A stretch of DNA of 50,603 bases from a virus: IMG/VR virus record IMGVR_UViG_3300046002_006145, positions 1-50,603 of that record. One strand, given 5' to 3'. A program made the position numbers and the translations under genes. This document shows, one piece after another, positions 860-44,662 of the stretch. The notes under the pieces were generated by a model that was not told the DNA's origin, did no database searches, and worked only from the letters and a program-made list of their open reading frames with translations. Position 1 is the stretch's first letter; each line of letters begins with the position of its first letter.

Positions 860-2320
860 TTAAAAATATCCTGATAAGTCTTTTACGCTTGCGTTTCCTC
901 GCCTTTCTATTGTTCCTGTCAGTGCATCCGGTGCATCGTCGTGCTCATTCCTTCCGACCTTCATATAGCTTGTCAATGACTTGTAAAAAGCTGGCCACAT
1001 CTTATCCCAACCCTTTGGAAAGTAGGTTAGATTCTGAACCTCTGACGATTTAGAAAATATCCTGACATTCTTGTTTTCGCCTTGGTGGAACCAATCTACA
1101 TTCGTGTAGTTGTTACCCATCGCACGCAATTGTTTTTCAACTGCCCTGGCGAATCCACGCCCTCCATTGTTCGACTCGATTATGGCTTCTTTCACTTCAT
1201 TTCGACTTAACAGTTCAGCTGTCTTTGGCTCTGTATATTCCATTGCTTTTTGGGTGTATAGAATATCGGTAACATAATTGGCCGTTTCTGTTTCGATGTA
1301 TGAAATAGCACACAAATAATCTTTTCCCTCGTCAGCTGTATCGATGTAAGCCTTCTTAATCATCGTTTTGCTATACGGTATGATTTCATATTCCCTGAAA
1401 GCTCGTTCGTACATTAGCCCTTGCAACGGTTTCGGGTCCTGTTGATAAAGCGATTCAAAAACGTGCGGTGCTCTTTCCCTTACTGATACCAGTTTTTCAA
1501 TGTTGTGCCTTGCTTCCCATAATGCTTCTCCTTGCTCTCTTGGGTCGTACTCGTTTGGCTCACTCATTTTGATGGCCTGATACGTTACGACAATCCAACC
1601 ACGTGGGTTGGTAATTGGGTCATATACCCCTTGCTGCTCTAAAAGATGCCCTGCAAGGTCAGCTTCGTGCCAACGGGTGAATACTATCAACTGTTGGCTA
1701 TCGTTGTGCAAACGTGTTTCAGCAACGGTGTCGTACCAATCTTCTACTGATTCCCTAACTGTTGGCGACCAGGCTGTTTTGGCATCTTTATAGATGTCGT
1801 CCATAATCAGCATATCAACAGGATCACCGGTCAAAGCACCACCAACACCAACCGTTTTGAAACCTCCACGAAAACCACATATCTCGCACTCGTCAGCGTT
1901 ACGCAACCAAGAGCCTGAAATGGTTGTTACGTTGGAAGCGTTCAGGGTCGTTTCTGGGAATATCTTGTGATATTCTGCTGTGTCGATTACCCTTTGGATT
2001 TCACGGTTAAACTTTCTCGCCTTTGGAGCTGAATACGAAACAACCGCCACTTTTCTGTTTGGGTCTTTACCAAGAACAAAGGCTGGCAGCCTACGTGTGG
2101 AACCTTCACTTTTTCCGTGTTGCGGTGGCATAAATACCATTAGCTTTTTAATGCTTCCGTCCGCAAATTCTGTAAGAACGTTGTAATATCTTTTATGGAA
2201 GTCAGCAGGATCGAATGTCGGCATTGTCGCTTTGGTAAACGTCAAAAGACCGTTCCGGCTTTCCCGAATCAGTCTTTCATCCAATGCTTTTAAATATTCA
2301 ATCTGCTCACTTCGGGTCAT
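860..2320 (-). CDS. terL: Terminase large subunit
   Basis: The ATPase-nuclease motor that packages DNA into the procapsid, 486 residues, a usual length. A Walker A-like motif MPPQHGKSE is at residues 64-72 and Walker B VDMLIMDD at 168-175. The C-terminal RNase H-like nuclease domain shows an acidic strand YIDTADEGKD (D327), IIESNNGGRGFAR near 380-392 and the characteristic HDDAPDALTG near 456. It overlaps the small subunit by four bases (ATGA). The upstream operon also holds the glycosyltransferase and ParB-like genes, and the tail-fibre genes follow, an unusual order. Identification is firm; the packaging mode (headful or cohesive-end) cannot be read from the protein. Confidence 0.96.
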   Translation of the reverse strand: MTRSEQIEYLKALDERLIRESRNGLLTFTKATMPTFDPADFHKRYYNVLTEFADGSIKKLMVFMPPQHGKSEGSTRRLPAFVLGKDPNRKVAVVSYSAPKARKFNREIQRVIDTAEYHKIFPETTLNASNVTTISGSWLRNADECEICGFRGGFKTVGVGGALTGDPVDMLIMDDIYKDAKTAWSPTVRESVEDWYDTVAETRLHNDSQQLIVFTRWHEADLAGHLLEQQGVYDPITNPRGWIVVTYQAIKMSEPNEYDPREQGEALWEARHNIEKLVSVRERAPHVFESLYQQDPKPLQGLMYERAFREYEIIPYSKTMIKKAYIDTADEGKDYLCAISYIETETANYVTDILYTQKAMEYTEPKTAELLSRNEVKEAIIESNNGGRGFARAVEKQLRAMGNNYTNVDWFHQGENKNVRIFSKSSEVQNLTYFPKGWDKMWPAFYKSLTSYMKVGRNEHDDAPDALTGTIERRGNASVKDLSGYF

Positions 2321-2808
2321 TTTTCATTTTTCTTTTCCAGCTCTTTAATTTTGGATTCCAGTTCTTCGTCAGTTAGCTTCTCAAATAAGTCCTTTCCGTC
2401 CTTGCCTGTAAGCTCCGTATTCTGTCTGTTCTTCCAATTCTGTGGATCCTTATTCGTTTGGAAGTGGATAATAGCCCCAAGGTTTGGTGAAATAACCTTT
2501 TTAGTAATCGTTTGCTCCTTTATCTTTGGCTGTCCTGCCCCATTGTCCACCGTAACCGTTTTCTTTTCCTCGTATTCGTAACCTTTGATTATCTTGACAA
2601 GTGACCTTTCGCACTCGATTAAGTTTTTCGCAATGAACTCATCTTTAGCCTTTTGTATAGCAACTGCGAATTCTGCAATATCTGATTGCCATTGATAATA
2701 GCAACGTTCTGATATTCCGACACTTACACATATTTCGGCAATAGTATAACTATCCTTCTTAATCAGGTCGCATATCTTTGTTACTATCCTTTTGTTATAC
2801 TTTGGCAT
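2317..2808 (-). CDS. terS: Terminase small subunit
   Basis: A 163-residue DNA-recognition subunit of the packaging enzyme. Residues about 8-45 form a helix-turn-helix of the type IAEICVSVGISERCYYQWQ, as in phBC6A51-type small terminases. The middle is helical and the C-terminus reads TGKDGKDLFEKLTDEELESKIKELEKK, a linker and charged helix common in this group. It is translated just before terL with a four-base overlap. It should bind the pac or cos site, which I did not locate. Confidence 0.88.
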   Translation of the reverse strand: MPKYNKRIVTKICDLIKKDSYTIAEICVSVGISERCYYQWQSDIAEFAVAIQKAKDEFIAKNLIECERSLVKIIKGYEYEEKKTVTVDNGAGQPKIKEQTITKKVISPNLGAIIHFQTNKDPQNWKNRQNTELTGKDGKDLFEKLTDEELESKIKELEKKNEK

Positions 2809-2809
2809 A

Positions 2810-3679
2810 TTATTTAACTTTTTTGAGTTCTATTCCATAATTATTAATGGAATTAACTATTTGAACACCCTTTTTTTTTCTCAGTTTATTAAATCTAAAA
2901 TGGCTATAATCAACATGATGATGCGCTCTTCCAAACTTCCAAGACAAACGAGCATACTGTGGGTATTCGTGAACTAACATTTTAGACTTTGGAAGCGTTC
3001 CTTCTTTCGAATAAAAATCAGTATTGTTTCCTCCTTTAACAGTTTGTGTCATAGCTTTGAATTGAAGGAATGCATTAAACTGAACTGTACACCAACCTGC
3101 ATTCAACATATCAATTGAAATAATAGTGTCCTCATTGTACCTTCCACGCCAACGAAACGGAACATCATTTCGAATCAGGTTACAAGAATAGATCCGAGTA
3201 TTCATTACGAATGGTGGATGCTTTTCTTTCCTTGTGACAAACATTTCATAATTTGGACCAGCCATTGCGACATTTTCATATCTGTTGCAAAAATCTTCCA
3301 TGATTAAGAAGAAAACGGGATCCTTCACTTCGTAATAATTGTTTTTATTGTATCGGCTAAACCTGAAAATATTATCATCCATTACCCAGTGCCATTCATA
3401 GCCTTTTAGGATTGAAAGTTCCCAAGCAAAATTCCGTGCAGCTCCTGGTCCTTTGCTTTTAGTATTTCCAAGATCATCCAATGTTTGGTATTTGTCCTGA
3501 TACGTTTTATCCAATACGATTAAATGATCCTTCCCTATTGAATTCCGGTACAAATCAAATTCCTGCTCTTCGACTATTACCCAGTAATTTGTGACCTTCA
3601 TTCTTTCCAATGCTTTTACGGTAATGTTACTACTGTAACGACCTTTACTTGGAATGTGAATTGGGTACTTGTTTTCCAT
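2810..3679 (-). CDS. TET-associated-type glycosyltransferase (phage DNA base glycosylation)
   Basis: A 289-residue GT-A-like glycosyltransferase. It carries HIPSKGR (residues 8-14), ARNFAWE near 81-87, a metal-binding WVMDDN at 98-103 and the family signature RGRYNEDT at 178-185, followed by a GGNNTDFY motif and a C-terminal GRAHHHVDY. This pattern matches the TAGT family described with TET/JBP dioxygenases in phage base-hypermodification systems, where it transfers sugar to a hydroxylated pyrimidine. No TET/JBP dioxygenase or hydroxymethyl-pyrimidine synthase is visible in this genome, so its acceptor is unknown. It sits in the terminase operon beside a ParB-like gene, which fits modification coupled to packaging. 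Protein or host glycans remain alternative acceptors. Confidence 0.8.
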   Translation of the reverse strand: MENKYPIHIPSKGRYSSNITVKALERMKVTNYWVIVEEQEFDLYRNSIGKDHLIVLDKTYQDKYQTLDDLGNTKSKGPGAARNFAWELSILKGYEWHWVMDDNIFRFSRYNKNNYYEVKDPVFFLIMEDFCNRYENVAMAGPNYEMFVTRKEKHPPFVMNTRIYSCNLIRNDVPFRWRGRYNEDTIISIDMLNAGWCTVQFNAFLQFKAMTQTVKGGNNTDFYSKEGTLPKSKMLVHEYPQYARLSWKFGRAHHHVDYSHFRFNKLRKKKGVQIVNSINNYGIELKKVK

Positions 3680-3682
3680 TTT

Positions 3683-4315
3683 TCAGCCCTTTTCAGCTTC
3701 GTAAACGTGATCAGTTTGTGATCCTGCTTTTTCTTCTGGAAACCAAATTGACTTTGTTTTTTCAGAAAGTTTTTGATCAATCAGTTTCCCGAAATTGATA
3801 TAGTCTTCAATTGATTTAAAATGAATAATCAAGTCTTTTACTCCTGATTTATCTTCACCTTCATATTCTGGCATTCCATTCCATTCGTCTTCTGGATTGT
3901 TTTCTCCAACTGATTTCACGCCCCAATCTTCGGGCTTTATTTCCCATTGGGCTGAAAGTTCCTGTACGGCTTGCTGATCCCAATCAAGGTTTACGTGAGC
4001 CACGGCATTGTCAGCTAAAGCAAGTTCACGACCCATTTTTGAGTCCAAATCAACATCGGTACGCTTTACCACTACCAACTGATTGCCGGTTGTTTCAACG
4101 ATAATGCAATCTTCAAGCCCAAGACTTGCAGCTGTTTCTGTAACACCGTTACCCCCGATAATACGGTTATTTTTGTCCACCAAAATAGAACGACCAAGCC
4201 CCAGAGTAGAAATAGACTTTTCGAGCAAGTGCATACCGTATTGGTTGTGCTTGTTCAAATTCTTATCGTCCTGTATCAGTGACGATATTTTCTTTTCTTG
4301 TACTTTGCTGCTCAT
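3683..4315 (-). CDS. ParB/sulfiredoxin-fold protein beside the glycosyltransferase
   Basis: A 210-residue protein whose first about 110 residues follow the ParB N-terminal pattern: a loop with IIGGNGVTETAASLGL in place of the usual GGHRR motif, then GRELALADNAVAHVNLDWD. The tail residues about 150-200 read like modules attached to ParB domains in phage DNA-modification clusters. Members bind or hydrolyse nucleotides (CTP or ATP) or act in DNA binding. The altered G-N-G-V-T-E motif raises the question of catalysis. It overlaps the upstream gene by four bases and precedes the glycosyltransferase by three, so all are co-expressed. Confidence 0.75.
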   Translation of the reverse strand: MSSKVQEKKISSLIQDDKNLNKHNQYGMHLLEKSISTLGLGRSILVDKNNRIIGGNGVTETAASLGLEDCIIVETTGNQLVVVKRTDVDLDSKMGRELALADNAVAHVNLDWDQQAVQELSAQWEIKPEDWGVKSVGENNPEDEWNGMPEYEGEDKSGVKDLIIHFKSIEDYINFGKLIDQKLSEKTKSIWFPEEKAGSQTDHVYEAEKG

Positions 4316-4629
4316 AACATTCTACGTTTTTGAACTTCCATTTTTTCAAAGAATAAGCTAAGTTTTTGCCTAACTGAAGGCTGTTTTTGTTTTATGAATA
4401 CCGTTCTATTTCCATCAAGCCAGACTGGTGGTTGTGTCACTCCGGAATGAATTGAAAGCCAAATGTTGCCAAAGAATAAAATTGAGATCCTTTCCCTTAG
4501 TGAAGGCCTCCAAAGTGAAATACACTCACGGCCATTGGTGAACACTTTCAGGTCGCCACATTCGGAATCAGTCAGCGCATTTGGTTTGGCCAGTGTCTTA
4601 TTTGATTCCTTAAAGTCTTTTGGTGTCAT
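4312..4629 (-). CDS. Conserved small phage protein, first gene of the terminase operon
   Basis: A 105-residue protein with the pattern LTDSECGDLKVFTNGRECISLWRPSLRERI, then WLSIHSGVTQPPVWL. I recognise this as a recurrent uncharacterised family in Bacteroidota phages and mobile elements but cannot assign a function. It is the first gene after the promoter at 4649-4679, and its start codon is preceded by a CGCAAC leader like that of several other genes here. It overlaps the ParB-like gene by four bases, so it is translationally coupled to the packaging and modification operon. Confidence 0.7.
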   Translation of the reverse strand: MTPKDFKESNKTLAKPNALTDSECGDLKVFTNGRECISLWRPSLRERISILFFGNIWLSIHSGVTQPPVWLDGNRTVFIKQKQPSVRQKLSLFFEKMEVQKRRML

Positions 4630-8064: not shown

Positions 8065-8787
8065 TTAATAAATTACTTCTCTTATTGAATTTTTATGGTT
8101 GTAAACTCGCTCAATATTATAGATGTAGTTTTTTACATCGCCTTGTTTGTCCATTATATTGGGAGCAGAACCTATTTTTTGTTTTAATTTTTCGAAGTCA
8201 CATTTGCCTTTTTTAGCTATTGCCTGGACCGCACCAATAAGGTATCTATCACGTGAGAAGGCATATCGTTTGAAAATAGATTCTGTTAACTCTACTAAGA
8301 AAGTAGCTTCGTCAAAAAACTTAACTCTAAAATCACCTGACTGAAAATCGTCTGTAGATTTTTCAGTGTGTTTATTGTACATCAATAAATCAGTCGAAAG
8401 CTTGATGTTGGTGTCGTGAGCTTTCATAAATGATTTTAGAGCTTTATAGTCTTCAATTCCTAAGTTGATATAGCAGTTCAGGAAATCGTTTGCTTTCCAT
8501 TTATCTCCACGGGAGTTCAATTGTGCAATTTGTTTCAAGGAAAGGGTGTTGCAAACTACATAATACACTGGATTATTTGTTTTCTTACTCACTTCAAAAC
8601 GGTGTTGGCCGTCAATGATGTGAAAGAAGCCCTGTTCACTTTCAGATACTACAATTGGGCAATAAGGCAACATATTAAAGCCGTTTGATACATCACTGCA
8701 TATTTTATCTATTTTTGAAACACTTAAAACTCTGTTACCTATGATGTTTTCGAAGCACTCATATTTTTTTGATTGTTGTATTACCAT
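8065..8787 (-). CDS. DGQHR/ParB-superfamily protein
   Basis: A 240-residue protein with the motif FHIIDGQHRFEV (residues about 54-65), the DGQHR signature of the ParB/sulfiredoxin-like superfamily. It is followed by VYYVVCNTLSLKQIAQLNSRGDKWKANDFLN, typical of these proteins. The C-terminal half is helical. Relatives occur in phages and in DNA-modification or defence loci; no activity is established. It is a second ParB-fold protein besides the one at 3683-4315 and differs from it in motif. The operator at 8815-8829 lies 28 bases upstream of its start. Confidence 0.7.
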   Translation of the reverse strand: MVIQQSKKYECFENIIGNRVLSVSKIDKICSDVSNGFNMLPYCPIVVSESEQGFFHIIDGQHRFEVSKKTNNPVYYVVCNTLSLKQIAQLNSRGDKWKANDFLNCYINLGIEDYKALKSFMKAHDTNIKLSTDLLMYNKHTEKSTDDFQSGDFRVKFFDEATFLVELTESIFKRYAFSRDRYLIGAVQAIAKKGKCDFEKLKQKIGSAPNIMDKQGDVKNYIYNIERVYNHKNSIREVIY

Positions 8788-18102: not shown

Positions 18103-20511
18103 ATGAAATATTCCGGCATTCGCGAAGAAGAGCTGAAAAACCGTATCGCGAAAGAATACTTTTCGATTTACGACTGTGCAAAAATTATTGGAAACGTTGA
18201 TTTCTGTGTTCGACTACACCAGGCAGGAAGACAGCTTTTTGAACAAGAATCGCTTCTTTGGGCAGAAGCCAAAACAGATTTATCGGATATTTACGATTCA
18301 ATTGCTCAATTAGTATTAACAATAGGAAAGGCAAGAACATTTGATAAATTTATGCCACCGCCACTACTCGGAGCAATGGATGGTGAGAAAATTGCTTTTG
18401 TTCCATATAATGAGATACACGATATATTTTACCAAAATGATTTTAACTGGAACGTCACACCCTCGGATAGTTCGACAAAAGAATTTCAGTTAATTAGAGA
18501 TAAAGTAAAGACAATCATTGACCCAAAAGCACTTTTATTCAACTTTGAAAGTGATGAAAAGGATCTTAGAAAATTCATTAAAGACAATTTCATTGTCGGT
18601 AAGTTAGGATTCACTAAGATAAAAATCGACAAGAATAACTTCATTGTCATATATAGCAAATGGCTCAAATCTGTTAAACCTTCAATAGCTGTTAACTGGG
18701 ACCTTGCCAAGAAAAAAGGTGTTATTGATGGCGACTTTTATCTTGCCGATTTGCTTTCGGCTGAGAATATTACTTTAAAAGAAAAGCTTTACGTCGTTTT
18801 GAAATCAAAACACTACGAGTTAAACCGCCATCAAGACGAATATGGTGCTTATACTTCGAGTAGTGTAGAATTTAACGACAACCAGATAGCTCATACACAA
18901 TTCTGGAATAGATATGAACGGCCACCAAAAGAGGAATATTGGGATTATATAGAAAATAGGCGTGATCTATTGGTTCCACAGGACGTTCGAGAAAGAAAAG
19001 GCAGTTATTTTACTCCTCAAAAATGGGTTGAGCTTTCACAAAAGTATCTTACCGAAGTCCTGGACGAAGATTGGCAGGACGAGTATTATATCTGGGATTG
19101 TGCCTCCGGTACAGGTAACTTATTACACGGATTGACAAATAAATACAATATCTGGGCATCAACACTGGACACCCAGGATGTTGAAGTTATGTATGACCGC
19201 ATTAGAAATGGGGCAAACTTACTTGAAGACCACGTTTTTCAATTTGACTTTTTGAATGATGAATTTACTAAGCTCCCACAACCATTACAGGACATTATAA
19301 ACAATCCTGAAAAAAGGCGAAAATTGGTAGTTTATATTAATCCTCCTTATGCTGAAGCTGACAGTAGGAAGGGTGAAGGTAGGTCAGGTATTGCCGTGTC
19401 ACTCATACATAAAAGGTATTCTGATAGGATGGGATATACAAAACGAGAATTATACATTCAATTCCTGACAAGGATATATCTTGAAATTAATGGTTGTTTA
19501 CTCGCTGATTTCTCTAAACTAAAGAACTTACAAGCTCCGAAATTTATAGATTTCCGTAACTTTTTCAAAGCAAAGCTTCTAAAGTGCTTTCTCGTTCCTG
19601 CTTATACTTTCGATAATGTTATTGGTAATTTTCCAATCGGATTTATGATCTGGGATACTGCAATAAGTGAAAATTTTGAACACTTTTTGGCTGATGTATT
19701 TGATGAAGATCAACGCTTTATTGAGCGTAAACACCTATGGGCATACGATGATGTTAAAGTTATAAATGACTGGACATTAACGTTTATTGATGAATCTGAT
19801 AAAATTGAATCATTGGGTACAATTATCGGAGTAGGTAGTGATTTTCAACATCAAAATACAGTTAGAATCGAAAAGCCTTTTAGGATGTGGAACCATAATT
19901 ATCAATGGCAAATTACTAAGGATAACTTAATTGAAACATCAATTTATCTGGCCGTTAGGCTATGCGTGAAAGCTACGTGGATAAATGATAGAGATCAATT
20001 CTTATTCCCAAATGAAGGATGGACAATTGACCAGGAGTTTCAAAACAATTGCTTTACCTTTACTTTATTTAGTCACAACTATATTAAATCAGACGACGGT
20101 GTTAATCACTGGATTCCATTCACAGAACACGAAGTAAATTCAAGAGAGAAATTCGAAAGTAATTTTATGACTTCGTTTATTAGTGGAAAGCTTAATCATA
20201 AACCTAAAGTAAATCTTTTCGAAACTAAAGAGAGCCGGAAGGACCCCTTGGAATTTTCCCCAGAGGCACAAAATGTATTTAACGCTGGCAGGATGCTTTG
20301 GTCATATTACCACGCACAACCAAAATGTAACGTGAATGCTACGTTATATGACATTAGGGAGTATTTTCAATGCAGGAATGATAAAGGGGTAATGAAAAGC
20401 AGAAGTGAAGATGAAACCTATATGGAACTAATCACCAACCTACGAAATAAGTTGAAACTTTTGCAAATTAAAATTGAGCCGAAGGTTTACGAATATGGGT
20501 TTTTAAAGTAA
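18103..20511 (+). CDS. N6-adenine DNA methyltransferase, lysogeny-operon copy
   Basis: An 802-residue class I methyltransferase. RKGSYFTPQKWV precedes SAM-binding motif I WDCASGTGNLL (residues 331-341), and catalytic motif IV is NPPY (413-416), the N6-adenine type. Flanking regions of about 300 and 380 residues probably include target recognition. I see no clear PD-(D/E)xK nuclease, although the N-terminal part could hide one, as in type IIG enzymes. Expressed with the repressors in the lysogen, it may protect or mark prophage DNA, or act as a restriction system against other phages. Confidence 0.85.
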   Translation: MKYSGIREEELKNRIAKEYFSIYDCAKIIGNVDFCVRLHQAGRQLFEQESLLWAEAKTDLSDIYDSIAQLVLTIGKARTFDKFMPPPLLGAMDGEKIAFVPYNEIHDIFYQNDFNWNVTPSDSSTKEFQLIRDKVKTIIDPKALLFNFESDEKDLRKFIKDNFIVGKLGFTKIKIDKNNFIVIYSKWLKSVKPSIAVNWDLAKKKGVIDGDFYLADLLSAENITLKEKLYVVLKSKHYELNRHQDEYGAYTSSSVEFNDNQIAHTQFWNRYERPPKEEYWDYIENRRDLLVPQDVRERKGSYFTPQKWVELSQKYLTEVLDEDWQDEYYIWDCASGTGNLLHGLTNKYNIWASTLDTQDVEVMYDRIRNGANLLEDHVFQFDFLNDEFTKLPQPLQDIINNPEKRRKLVVYINPPYAEADSRKGEGRSGIAVSLIHKRYSDRMGYTKRELYIQFLTRIYLEINGCLLADFSKLKNLQAPKFIDFRNFFKAKLLKCFLVPAYTFDNVIGNFPIGFMIWDTAISENFEHFLADVFDEDQRFIERKHLWAYDDVKVINDWTLTFIDESDKIESLGTIIGVGSDFQHQNTVRIEKPFRMWNHNYQWQITKDNLIETSIYLAVRLCVKATWINDRDQFLFPNEGWTIDQEFQNNCFTFTLFSHNYIKSDDGVNHWIPFTEHEVNSREKFESNFMTSFISGKLNHKPKVNLFETKESRKDPLEFSPEAQNVFNAGRMLWSYYHAQPKCNVNATLYDIREYFQCRNDKGVMKSRSEDETYMELITNLRNKLKLLQIKIEPKVYEYGFLK

Positions 20512-42036: not shown

Positions 42037-42072
42037 AAAAAAAGGCTGGAATTTAACCCAGCCTTTTTTTTT
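42035..42072. terminator. Bidirectional terminator between the plus cluster and the MuF gene
   Basis: A stem AAAAAGGCTGG/CCAGCCTTTTT with an eight-base loop and long A- and T-runs, covering 42035-42072 and overlapping the stops of both converging genes. It separates the plus-strand cluster from the MuF-portal operon. Confidence 0.9.
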
Positions 42073-44662
42073 ATAGCTTAACGATACCAGAACTTTTTTC
42101 CAAGTATAATTTAATACCAAATGATTTGAGCTTTCTTATAACTTCAGGCGTGAACCTACTTGCATCACTCTCTGATATAAGTATCTTTTCAACGTGAGTT
42201 AGATCAACCTTACCGTGATACTGCAGCTCAATATACGAAGTTCCAAATTTGTTTGTGAACTTATGAATATTTTTCGTTCCAACAGATTTTGAAGCTGAAA
42301 TGATATTGTTAAAACTATAGTTGCTTACAGAACTAACCTTTGGATTTGTAGTCAATGAAGGTGCAAGTCCAGAACCCAAACTATCATTCATTGTAAATGT
42401 AGCCTGAACATTATCTTTCTTAAAGTAAGCTATAGTCCTGCCGTAACTTGAAGGTCCGTAGTTGCCAATCTCTACAGCCATATCCTTATCACCCAAATAT
42501 CCATAATGCTCGTAATCGAATGCTTTTGCCTTCTTAGTATCTGTACCAAATAGGTTATTTGAAGCCGTAATTCGACGGTCAGGGTCAAGCATACCACCCG
42601 ATTTTACATTAAGTCCAAGTTCTCTAAGTTCTATCTGATTAAGGAAGCCGTGCTGCATTATTCCTTCTATATCACGTCCATTGAAACGCATTGAGAATTC
42701 ACCGTTATCAATAAGCTCGGCCATATAACCTTCGATTTCATTAATATCACTTTTAGATAATCCACGTGCTTTATCTTGAATCCATTTCCTTACGGTTTCT
42801 TCCTGATTGGCCAACGTTGGTGGCATTCCGGCTGTACGCTGAATCTTATATTGTTCACCAACCTTGCCTACTTCGTCAATAGCTTTCTGTATGCGTTTTA
42901 GGTCAGTAGTTCCTGTAGCAAGTGAAGCTTTCAGTTCACTAACAGCTGCTTTTACATCAGTTTCTTTGTAATCTTTAAAGCGATATATGACAGTCTTAGC
43001 CTGGTCGGTTATCCTTTCAGACTCATAAGAAGCTTTCATCAATTCAACGTCACGCTTGTATAGCGCAATCATTGTGTCGGAAGTGCTGTATCTGGAATGT
43101 GAAGGGATCCAATCTATTTCGAATTCAAGCTTGGAAATCTTCTCGGCTGTGCCTAACCTGGATATGTCAGCTATTTTTCTTTCGTAAGCGCCAAATAGCG
43201 AATCAACTTCGGACTGGCTAAACTTAGTAAGCAGATGTTCACGGCTTAATGGGTCTGCTTTTATAAGCTTTTGAGCTTTTATATCTTTAACCAATTTGCT
43301 CGATTTACCTGCTATCTGTGCATAAGTCAAGCTTTCATCTTCAATAGCTAGTTTCAAGGCTTCAAGGTTCTTGCTGGAAATACCAAGGCTTTCGGCTTCT
43401 ACTATTTTCTTTTTAGCGTAAACTATTTCAGCTATCTTTTTATCTGCCAGTACTTTTGCTTTTGCTGCTGCGATTGCTTGCTCTGCTGCTAGTGCTTCGG
43501 CTGCTGCCTTTGCTGCTTCTGCCGCCAATTTTTCTGCTGCAAGTGATTCCGCACTCTTTGTGGCTAGTTTCAGGCCACCAGACATCCTACCACCCACAAA
43601 GTTGTCTTTAATGAAATAAGGCTGTGATTTCCAACCTTTGGACCGTTCTGTATTATCAGCAATCCAATCTTTGAAACCTTTCGGAACGTCTGTAACGGTA
43701 TTGGCTGATTGAAACGGCTTGTATTCCGTTCCGTTAATGGCTGAAGAAAGCTCGTTTAGTTCGTCCGTGTTAAATTCTTTCGGGTCTTGAAGTATTGGAA
43801 TACACTTGCACCGGCATTGTGGGTGCCAGCCTACGAATTTGAATTCCTTTGGGTACTTGCCTTTGACTATATCGCAAATGTCATAAACAGGGTGATTATT
43901 TGACAGCATCACTTCGAAGCCGACAACGAAGTCAAGTTGCTGCCAACGAAGCTGGTCCGATTCTCGATATGCCATATTTATTTCGGAACGTGTCAAACGC
44001 ATTGCGTTTTTGTGACTGCTTCTATATTTTCCCTGCCCAGGATGGAATGCTTCGGCATTCTTTGAAAGGTGCAACACACCCCGTTTATCACGTACCTGTC
44101 TGAAAAGCTTATCCGGATCCACAAGGTATTGTTTCAATTCTCTTGAAAGTGATTGAGCTGATTTACCGTCACCAATAGCCACATCGATACCCAGTTCCAT
44201 TTGTTTCTTCATTTGGCCTGAGTAGTTCCATATCCTATCAGATAAGCCCATACCGTTAACCTTTCGTGTTTGGAAGGTTTTTAAGGCGTCAAGGTTTCTG
44301 TCCTGGTATTTATTCAGTACCGATTTTTTAACCTTGGAAGTGTCGAGTATGGCTGAAAGGAAAGCATCATTCTTTTGGCAGGCATAAAGCCATTGTTTTT
44401 CGCTTCCCTGAACGATAACGCTTTGCATCTTATTAGCCAACTGTGAAGCAATGACTTCGGCTTTGGCTTTTGTGCCTGGATAATCTGAAAAAGAAAAAGG
44501 CTTGGCAGGATCTATTTTTAATTTTGATGCCATCTGAGAATATTCAGCTACAGCCTGATTGTACAGCGTATCAATCGCCTTTGTGTACTGTTCCGTTTGC
44601 TGAATGTGACTGGCATCGAATCCTTGAATTGAAAAGCCTTGTTTCTTTGGTGTTTTAGACAT
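42071..44662 (-). CDS. MuF-type head protein with long C-terminal domain
   Basis: An 863-residue protein, far longer than plain MuF head proteins (about 300-400). Residues up to about 290 are MuF-like (RLTRSEINMAYRESDQLRWQQLDFVVGFEVMLSNNHPVYDICD, HPQCRCKC at 280-287). An alanine-rich helix (about 367-405) links to a long helical region. A C-terminal domain (about 660-863: SMRFNGRDIEGIMQHGFL, GRTIAYFKKDNVQATFTMNDSLG, YIELQYHGKVDLTHVEKILIS) resembles the enzyme-like ends of MuF polymorphic proteins. An effector injected with the DNA is possible. It lies downstream of the portal. Confidence 0.78.
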   Translation of the reverse strand: MSKTPKKQGFSIQGFDASHIQQTEQYTKAIDTLYNQAVAEYSQMASKLKIDPAKPFSFSDYPGTKAKAEVIASQLANKMQSVIVQGSEKQWLYACQKNDAFLSAILDTSKVKKSVLNKYQDRNLDALKTFQTRKVNGMGLSDRIWNYSGQMKKQMELGIDVAIGDGKSAQSLSRELKQYLVDPDKLFRQVRDKRGVLHLSKNAEAFHPGQGKYRSSHKNAMRLTRSEINMAYRESDQLRWQQLDFVVGFEVMLSNNHPVYDICDIVKGKYPKEFKFVGWHPQCRCKCIPILQDPKEFNTDELNELSSAINGTEYKPFQSANTVTDVPKGFKDWIADNTERSKGWKSQPYFIKDNFVGGRMSGGLKLATKSAESLAAEKLAAEAAKAAAEALAAEQAIAAAKAKVLADKKIAEIVYAKKKIVEAESLGISSKNLEALKLAIEDESLTYAQIAGKSSKLVKDIKAQKLIKADPLSREHLLTKFSQSEVDSLFGAYERKIADISRLGTAEKISKLEFEIDWIPSHSRYSTSDTMIALYKRDVELMKASYESERITDQAKTVIYRFKDYKETDVKAAVSELKASLATGTTDLKRIQKAIDEVGKVGEQYKIQRTAGMPPTLANQEETVRKWIQDKARGLSKSDINEIEGYMAELIDNGEFSMRFNGRDIEGIMQHGFLNQIELRELGLNVKSGGMLDPDRRITASNNLFGTDTKKAKAFDYEHYGYLGDKDMAVEIGNYGPSSYGRTIAYFKKDNVQATFTMNDSLGSGLAPSLTTNPKVSSVSNYSFNNIISASKSVGTKNIHKFTNKFGTSYIELQYHGKVDLTHVEKILISESDASRFTPEVIRKLKSFGIKLYLEKSSGIVKL

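Follow-up and report, generated by a model that had tools for sequence, protein, structure and literature searches.

ParB-like proteins with a conserved C-terminal domain, here called X, and glycosyltransferases of the TAGT family (PF20691) form a recurrent cassette in tailed viruses, in which X is a near-obligatory partner domain of the TAGT. Furthermore, ParB+TAGT and ParB-methyltransferase alternate in one genomic slot. On balance, ParB-X and TAGT probably constitute a late-expressed DNA-modification cassette, with ParB-X as the dedicated partner of the enzyme, which stands in the slot of a ParB-DNA methyltransferase and protects the packaged DNA.

The cassette was analysed in a viral record of 50,603 bases (IMG/VR IMGVR_UViG_3300046002_006145), referred to in its whole length as the window. 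The opening 127 bases of the window recur at its end, a terminal repeat that is expected of a complete genome. Since integrase, portal, capsid and terminase are all encoded in it (Pfam scans), the window represents a temperate tailed phage. The features of the locus are given in Table 1. Only 3 bp separate the ParB stop codon from the TAGT start codon, and TerS and TerL come next; the pair thus lies directly before the terminase genes, as the first-pass annotation of this DNA had stated. Upstream of ParB is a gene of 105 aa (4312-4629, minus strand) with a weak match to PHROG 34105 and no assigned function; genes that start like it and have in addition a membrane-like C-terminus are found upstream of ParB in loci L156, L175 and L187. 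A second ParB-like protein (8065-8787, minus strand; PHROG 12305, DGQHR motif) is encoded apart from the TAGT pair, and no ParA was noticed among the annotated window proteins. Adjoining the integrase is a protein of 802 aa (18103-20511, plus strand) with a sub-threshold N6_Mtase match in Pfam and no match in PHROG or PADLOC, and an 863-aa head morphogenesis protein (42071-44662, minus strand) strongly matches a PHROG named Bxa ADP-ribosyl transferase. PADLOC gave no hit.

Table 1. Features of the ParB-X/TAGT locus in the window
Feature	Position	Strand	Basis or remark
TAGT (PF20691) GT-A glycosyltransferase, 289 aa	2810..3679	-	Pfam, PHROG, AlphaFold model, fold search
TAGT DDN, aa 101-103	3371-3379	-	Residue comparison
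TAGT ED, aa 183-184	3128-3133	-	Residue comparison
ParB-like protein, 210 aa	3683..4315	-	PHROG, profile search, fold
ParB/Srx N-terminal domain, aa 1-125	3941..4315	-	Profile search, fold, ParB-methyltransferase comparison
GGNGVTE motif of ParB, aa 54-60	4136..4156	-	Without the Arg of the usual G-[HN]-x-R
X domain of ParB, about aa 141-207 (EWxGMPEF ... KTKxIWxP ... Y)	3695..3895	-	Dedicated TAGT partner domain
Terminase small subunit, TerS	2317..2808	-	PHROG 309
Terminase large subunit, TerL	860..2320	-	PF03237, PF22530

The protein encoded at 2810 had been identified as a TAGT, and this identification is confirmed. It matches PF20691 over the full profile (positions 1-205 of 205; hmmscan, E=8.8e-44, 150 bits, with a cut-off of 27.5 bits) and PHROG 842 (E=1e-43). 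A sequence search of solved structures gave no useful match; the AlphaFold model of the protein (pLDDT 91) has PDB neighbours of GT-A type. Residues D101-D102 and D184 are kept in every clade compared, T6 Ggt included. The window TAGT is therefore an intact member of the family, with a GT-A fold and both the DxD-like and the catalytic acidic residues.

The partner protein has no Pfam match over the cut-off. It matches PHROG 620/498, a profile search against solved structures returns Spo0J/Noc/ParB (E about 1e-12), and Foldseek places it in the ParB/sulfiredoxin fold, that of a ParB N-terminal domain, so that its description as ParB-like stands. The G-N-G-V-T-E motif, which had been regarded as altered, is indeed present, and it turns out to be the trait of a subtype: the Arg of G-x-x-R is present in 36 of 44 TAGT-linked ParBs and absent in eight, the window protein among them, and the ParB of L157, which is fused to an N6/N4 DNA methyltransferase, carries an identical GGNGVTE. 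This pocket Arg is typical of the ParB/Srx superfamily active site, with DNase and ATP-binding functions, and DNA nicking is reported for a Bacillus cereus ParB-methylase (PMC5512222). Because the active-site Arg of the NTPase/DNase-active ParB/Srx type is missing from the window ParB (GNGV), the protein is predicted to have no such DNase or ATP activity, and the absence of the Arg would be easier to reconcile with targeting or scaffolding than with catalysis.

The first-pass annotation considered the pair an orphan. This is correct in so far as the TAGT occurs without a visible TET/JBP enzyme, but the pair is by no means peculiar to this phage. Two samples were compared, one of 80 relatives of the window TAGT fetched from IMG/VR, and an independent one of 50 GTDB genome loci, 46 of which contain the TAGT together with upstream sequence. 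In most of the IMG/VR relatives a ParB-type ORF is located directly upstream of the TAGT, and the two frames usually overlap if each ORF is taken to begin at its first start codon. Conservation in these ParBs is highest in the C-terminal stretch of ~65-70 aa that constitutes X. Searches with an X profile found X upstream of or fused to the TAGT in 75/75 IMG/VR loci that reach far enough, nearly always at a distance of 30 bp or less; the five IMG/VR loci without X end within 300 bp of the TAGT gene. X was likewise found in 42 of the 46 GTDB loci, and the other four comprise three that show an X-like stretch by eye and one that looks mis-assembled. When X was used as a query in the phage collection, the matches were X-TAGT fusions only (15 records). 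Parts of the X region are modelled with low confidence, the pLDDT being about 50-60 at the start of the region.

Three arrangements are recognized: ParB-X adjoining the TAGT; X alone, as a gene of 80-82 aa with no ParB (L044, L047, L060, L062, L069 and L081); and X fused to the TAGT (Aeh1, PTm1, Kuja and Vibrio phages 1.076 and 1.124). ParB, X and TAGT are even contained in a single reading frame in L137. The X-only genes and the X-TAGT fusions indicate that X is the constant partner, and ParB a usual yet dispensable addition. Three loci (L005, 5204-6004; L030, 883-1815; L133, 2893-3975) have extra genes between ParB-X (or X) and the TAGT; judged by eye, their products resemble a SAM-dependent methyltransferase and glycosyltransferases, and might act on the sugar after its transfer. 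Two TAGT-like genes are found in tandem behind a single ParB-X in L026 (1165-3499) and L103 (4001-5856), and in Vibrio phage Kuja a tandem of two X-TAGT fusions (L094, 3587-6275) adjoins an annotated DNA end protector gene.

A second group of TAGTs, apart from the X-linked ones in the tree, was found in Escherichia Rac-like prophages, Lactobacillus jlb1, Nocardia NTR1, Haloarcula HHTV-2, Vibrio Va1 and a Porphyromonas phage; Lactobacillus phiLdb is counted in this clade but absent from the tree. These TAGTs adjoin proteins of ParB type whose C-terminal domain differs from X and is here named Y, and the tailed viruses that bear the cassette have as hosts many bacteria and an archaeon (Haloarcula). 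The N-terminal part of the Porphyromonas ParB shows 56% identity to the window ParB; the protein has no X and is paired with a second-group TAGT. The type of the C-terminal domain, and not the ParB domain, thus tracks the TAGT clade, with the swap itself seen in a single example. In E. coli, the pair was matched in 1,575 of 5,426 complete genomes (about 29%), 887 of them over at least 80% of the pair, and the TAGT in these genomes is annotated as 'hypothetical protein'. K-12 MG1655 has a short ynaK and no annotated TAGT. In phiLdb (L089, 848-1713) the TAGT is split into two overlapping ORFs, which may represent inactivation or recoding.

Pairwise identities of ParB-N, X and TAGT showed weak to moderate correlations, and those of ParB-N and X were uncorrelated, a comparison that is used here solely as an indication that ParB-N does not co-vary with X. 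This independence, and the fact that the slot also holds ParBs without a TAGT, would be compatible with ParB and TAGT being unrelated cargo genes in a common favourable place. The recurrence of the arrangement in dozens of unrelated phages excludes chance, and the adjacency in most loci, the overlapping frames, the fusions and the agreement between C-terminal domain type and TAGT clade make unrelated cargo very improbable.

The alternation with DNA methyltransferases is seen in several lineages. A query with the ParB-N of the E. coli pair retrieved 474 phage records, and among the rows sampled the annotated hits were mostly DNA methyltransferases. In six phages that were looked at, a methyltransferase or ParB gene (checked by Pfam) lies shortly before the terminase. 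Two of the comparisons are between close relatives. One is that of jlb1 and Lj771, which are 87% identical in the activator, 75% in TerS, 86% in TerL and 96% in the portal protein; between activator and TerS, jlb1 has ParB+TAGT, whereas in Lj771 a ParB-like stretch precedes an N6/N4 methyltransferase. The other concerns the lineage of the window, which was sampled by 80 relatives of its TerL. In L157, L169, L170, L217 and others, with TerL about 71-79% identical, a ParB-methyltransferase is situated upstream of TerS/TerL, and its ParB domain is 54-68% identical to that of the window. These phage ParB-DNA methyltransferases thus share both the ParB-N subtype and the genomic slot with the window pair, and differ in that an N6/N4 (or C5) methyltransferase replaces the glycosyltransferase. 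Another form was observed in L160, L171, L175, L187, L159 and L156, where a stand-alone ParB of about 180-184 aa is immediately followed by TerS, without an intervening modification enzyme; the C-terminus of this ParB, RLIVECxDVxKLSxLFxELQDRGFKCELKE, is a third C-terminal type.

Characterised members of the TAGT family act once 5hmC is formed (PMC13216743, PMC13390438), and the first-pass annotation saw no TET/JBP or nucleotide-modifying enzyme in the window. Our searches agree with it. Forty window proteins, comprising almost every one longer than about 150 aa, were scanned against Pfam (hmmscan), without a match to a dioxygenase (TET/JBP included), a thymidylate-synthase relative or a C5-methyltransferase, and PHROG searches with 20 of the 40 found no acceptor-making enzyme. 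Six-frame searches of the window for PF12851, PF00303, PF00145 and PF13640 likewise found none. When the relatives were included, PF12851 was found in 0 of 33 records, PF13640 in 0 of 28, PF00145 in four of 28 and PF00303 in five of 28, all five being larger than 100 kb and the T6 positive control among them. Positive controls were detected for PF00303, PF00145 and PF13640, and not for PF12851, so that the absence of TET is supported mainly by the Pfam scans. The window has no dCMP hydroxymethylase of the thymidylate-synthase family in a search that detected that of T6. Very divergent hydroxylases or oxygenases can be missed by such profiles. As far as tested, the window TAGT stands outside the TET and the T-even 5hmC pathways.

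The TAGT could still follow the characterised family members if it glycosylated a hydroxylated pyrimidine whose source was a host enzyme or a phage hydroxylase that escaped recognition, given that divergent oxygenases escape profiles, that the PF12851 control was detected nowhere and that PTm1 has a weak thymidylate-synthase-family match besides its main one. We consider this improbable, since the loci have no third gene in common except packaging genes, PF13640 is lacking from all 28 records and PF00303 from all but five, the pair in X-only cassettes has no space for a concealed enzyme, and the cassette occurs in genomes as small as 34 kb. The X-only cassettes and these very small genomes suggest that the acceptor probably pre-exists in the infected cell, either as an ordinary base or as a modified base made by the host.

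The window TAGT shares the full-domain match, GT-A fold and DD and ED acidic residues with PF20691/PHROG 842, and differs from the family in having no TET/JBP or dCMP hydroxymethylase, in its near-obligatory X or Y partner and in its position in a packaging operon. It shares the Pfam family and key acidic residues with the beta-glucosyl-HMC-alpha-glucosyltransferase (Ggt) of T6/T2, whereas the Ggt of T6 belongs to the family distantly (36 bits), has neither X nor ParB, lies beside gene 42 and extends glucosyl-5hmC; it acts on DNA sugars (PMC13216743, PMC13390438). The T4-like glycosyltransferases of the Aeh1/65 type are about 50% identical to the window TAGT and differ in being fused rather than separate (with X N-terminal in Aeh1), in having no ParB domain and in lying away from the terminase. 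Aeh1 and 65 are not listed among the phages with gene 42 (Petrov 2010, PMC2993671), and the one Aeh1 match that exceeds the PF00303 cut-off spans the full length, in keeping with a thymidylate synthase. Since even these T4-like relatives are without gene 42, the earlier suggestion of a different acceptor is favoured. The Aeh1 glycosyltransferase (Aeh1ORF087c) has been listed with an 'unknown base' (PMC8056088, citing Iyer et al. 2013). The dCMP of T4 relatives without gene 42 was inferred to be largely unmodified, from the restriction sensitivity of some of them (Petrov 2010, PMC2993671). This speaks against massive modification of their cytosines, and any mark is therefore more likely to be rare or site-specific.

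The position before the terminase had also suggested that modification is coupled to packaging. This is not specifically supported, because the terminases downstream of the cassette belong to several unrelated families (the Terminase_6N type of the window, TerL_ATPase/TerL_nuclease and lambda-type GpA), so that the position is not tied to one packaging machine, and because the slot is common to DNA methyltransferases. The position would be accounted for equally well by a modification gene that is expressed late. The terminase neighbourhood and the DNA end protector gene of Kuja might also point to modification of DNA ends or breaks, at a 3'-OH or 5'-phosphate, that arise from packaging, as an end protection. 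Such a role is highly unlikely, as packaging types vary while the cassette is constant, and large phages, T4-like ones included, have no annotated terminase within several kb of the TAGT gene.

A protein acceptor, such as a virion, terminase or DNA-binding protein glycosylated before assembly, would likewise account for the terminase adjacency. The GT-A/GT2-like TAGT has protein and polysaccharide glycosyltransferases among its closest solved folds, including collagen galactosyltransferase and POMGNT2, which speaks for such an acceptor and against DNA. We nevertheless regard it as unlikely, because the adjoining terminase and head genes are of different families and no conserved protein acceptor is apparent, and the exchange with methyltransferases and the ParB domains point to DNA. 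Modification of DNA, the leading idea of the first-pass annotation, gains from this exchange, from the intact glycosyltransferase and its X partner, from the fusions, from the lack of any recognisable acceptor-making enzyme and from the kinship with T6 Ggt.

For a DNA-modifying cassette we propose the following scheme. The TAGT would move a sugar from a nucleotide-sugar onto phage DNA made during infection. X would contact the glycosyltransferase or its substrate, and the ParB domain, where present, would bring the complex to DNA. The mark would protect DNA about to be packaged and injected, the same job as that of a ParB-DNA methyltransferase. DNA as the acceptor, the roles of the domains, late expression and protection are inferred. 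ParB is not essential, given the X-only versions, and it may have a role of its own, since some ParBs stand alone before TerS with no enzyme.

Ordinary DNA bases lack a hydroxyl group, and the direct glycosylation of such bases by a GT-A enzyme is, to our knowledge, not a known reaction. An ordinary base may be the acceptor all the same. The specific form that this could take, a site-selective, ParB-X-guided glycosylation of ordinary bases (e.g. at an exocyclic or ring nitrogen) in one step, with no hydroxylated base and interchangeable with DNA methylation, is put forward tentatively and is rather unlikely.

Solitary TAGTs have been found in 288 of 753 phage genomes, with their role left open (NAR 2026, PMC13216743). 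The literature searched describes no link of ParB with TAGT or terminase, no X/Y partner domains, no exchange with ParB-methyltransferases, no ynaK together with ParB and prophage, and no nucleoside analysis of a pair-bearing phage; Iyer et al. 2013 lay outside that search, so that a prior description of the link, the partner domains or the exchange is possible. Solitary TAGTs of this sort are now tied to a partner domain and to a genomic slot that alternates with DNA methyltransferases. With matches to the pair in so many complete E. coli genomes, the acceptor question is directly testable in laboratory E. coli, and if an ordinary base is the acceptor, the cassette would represent a new way of modifying DNA.
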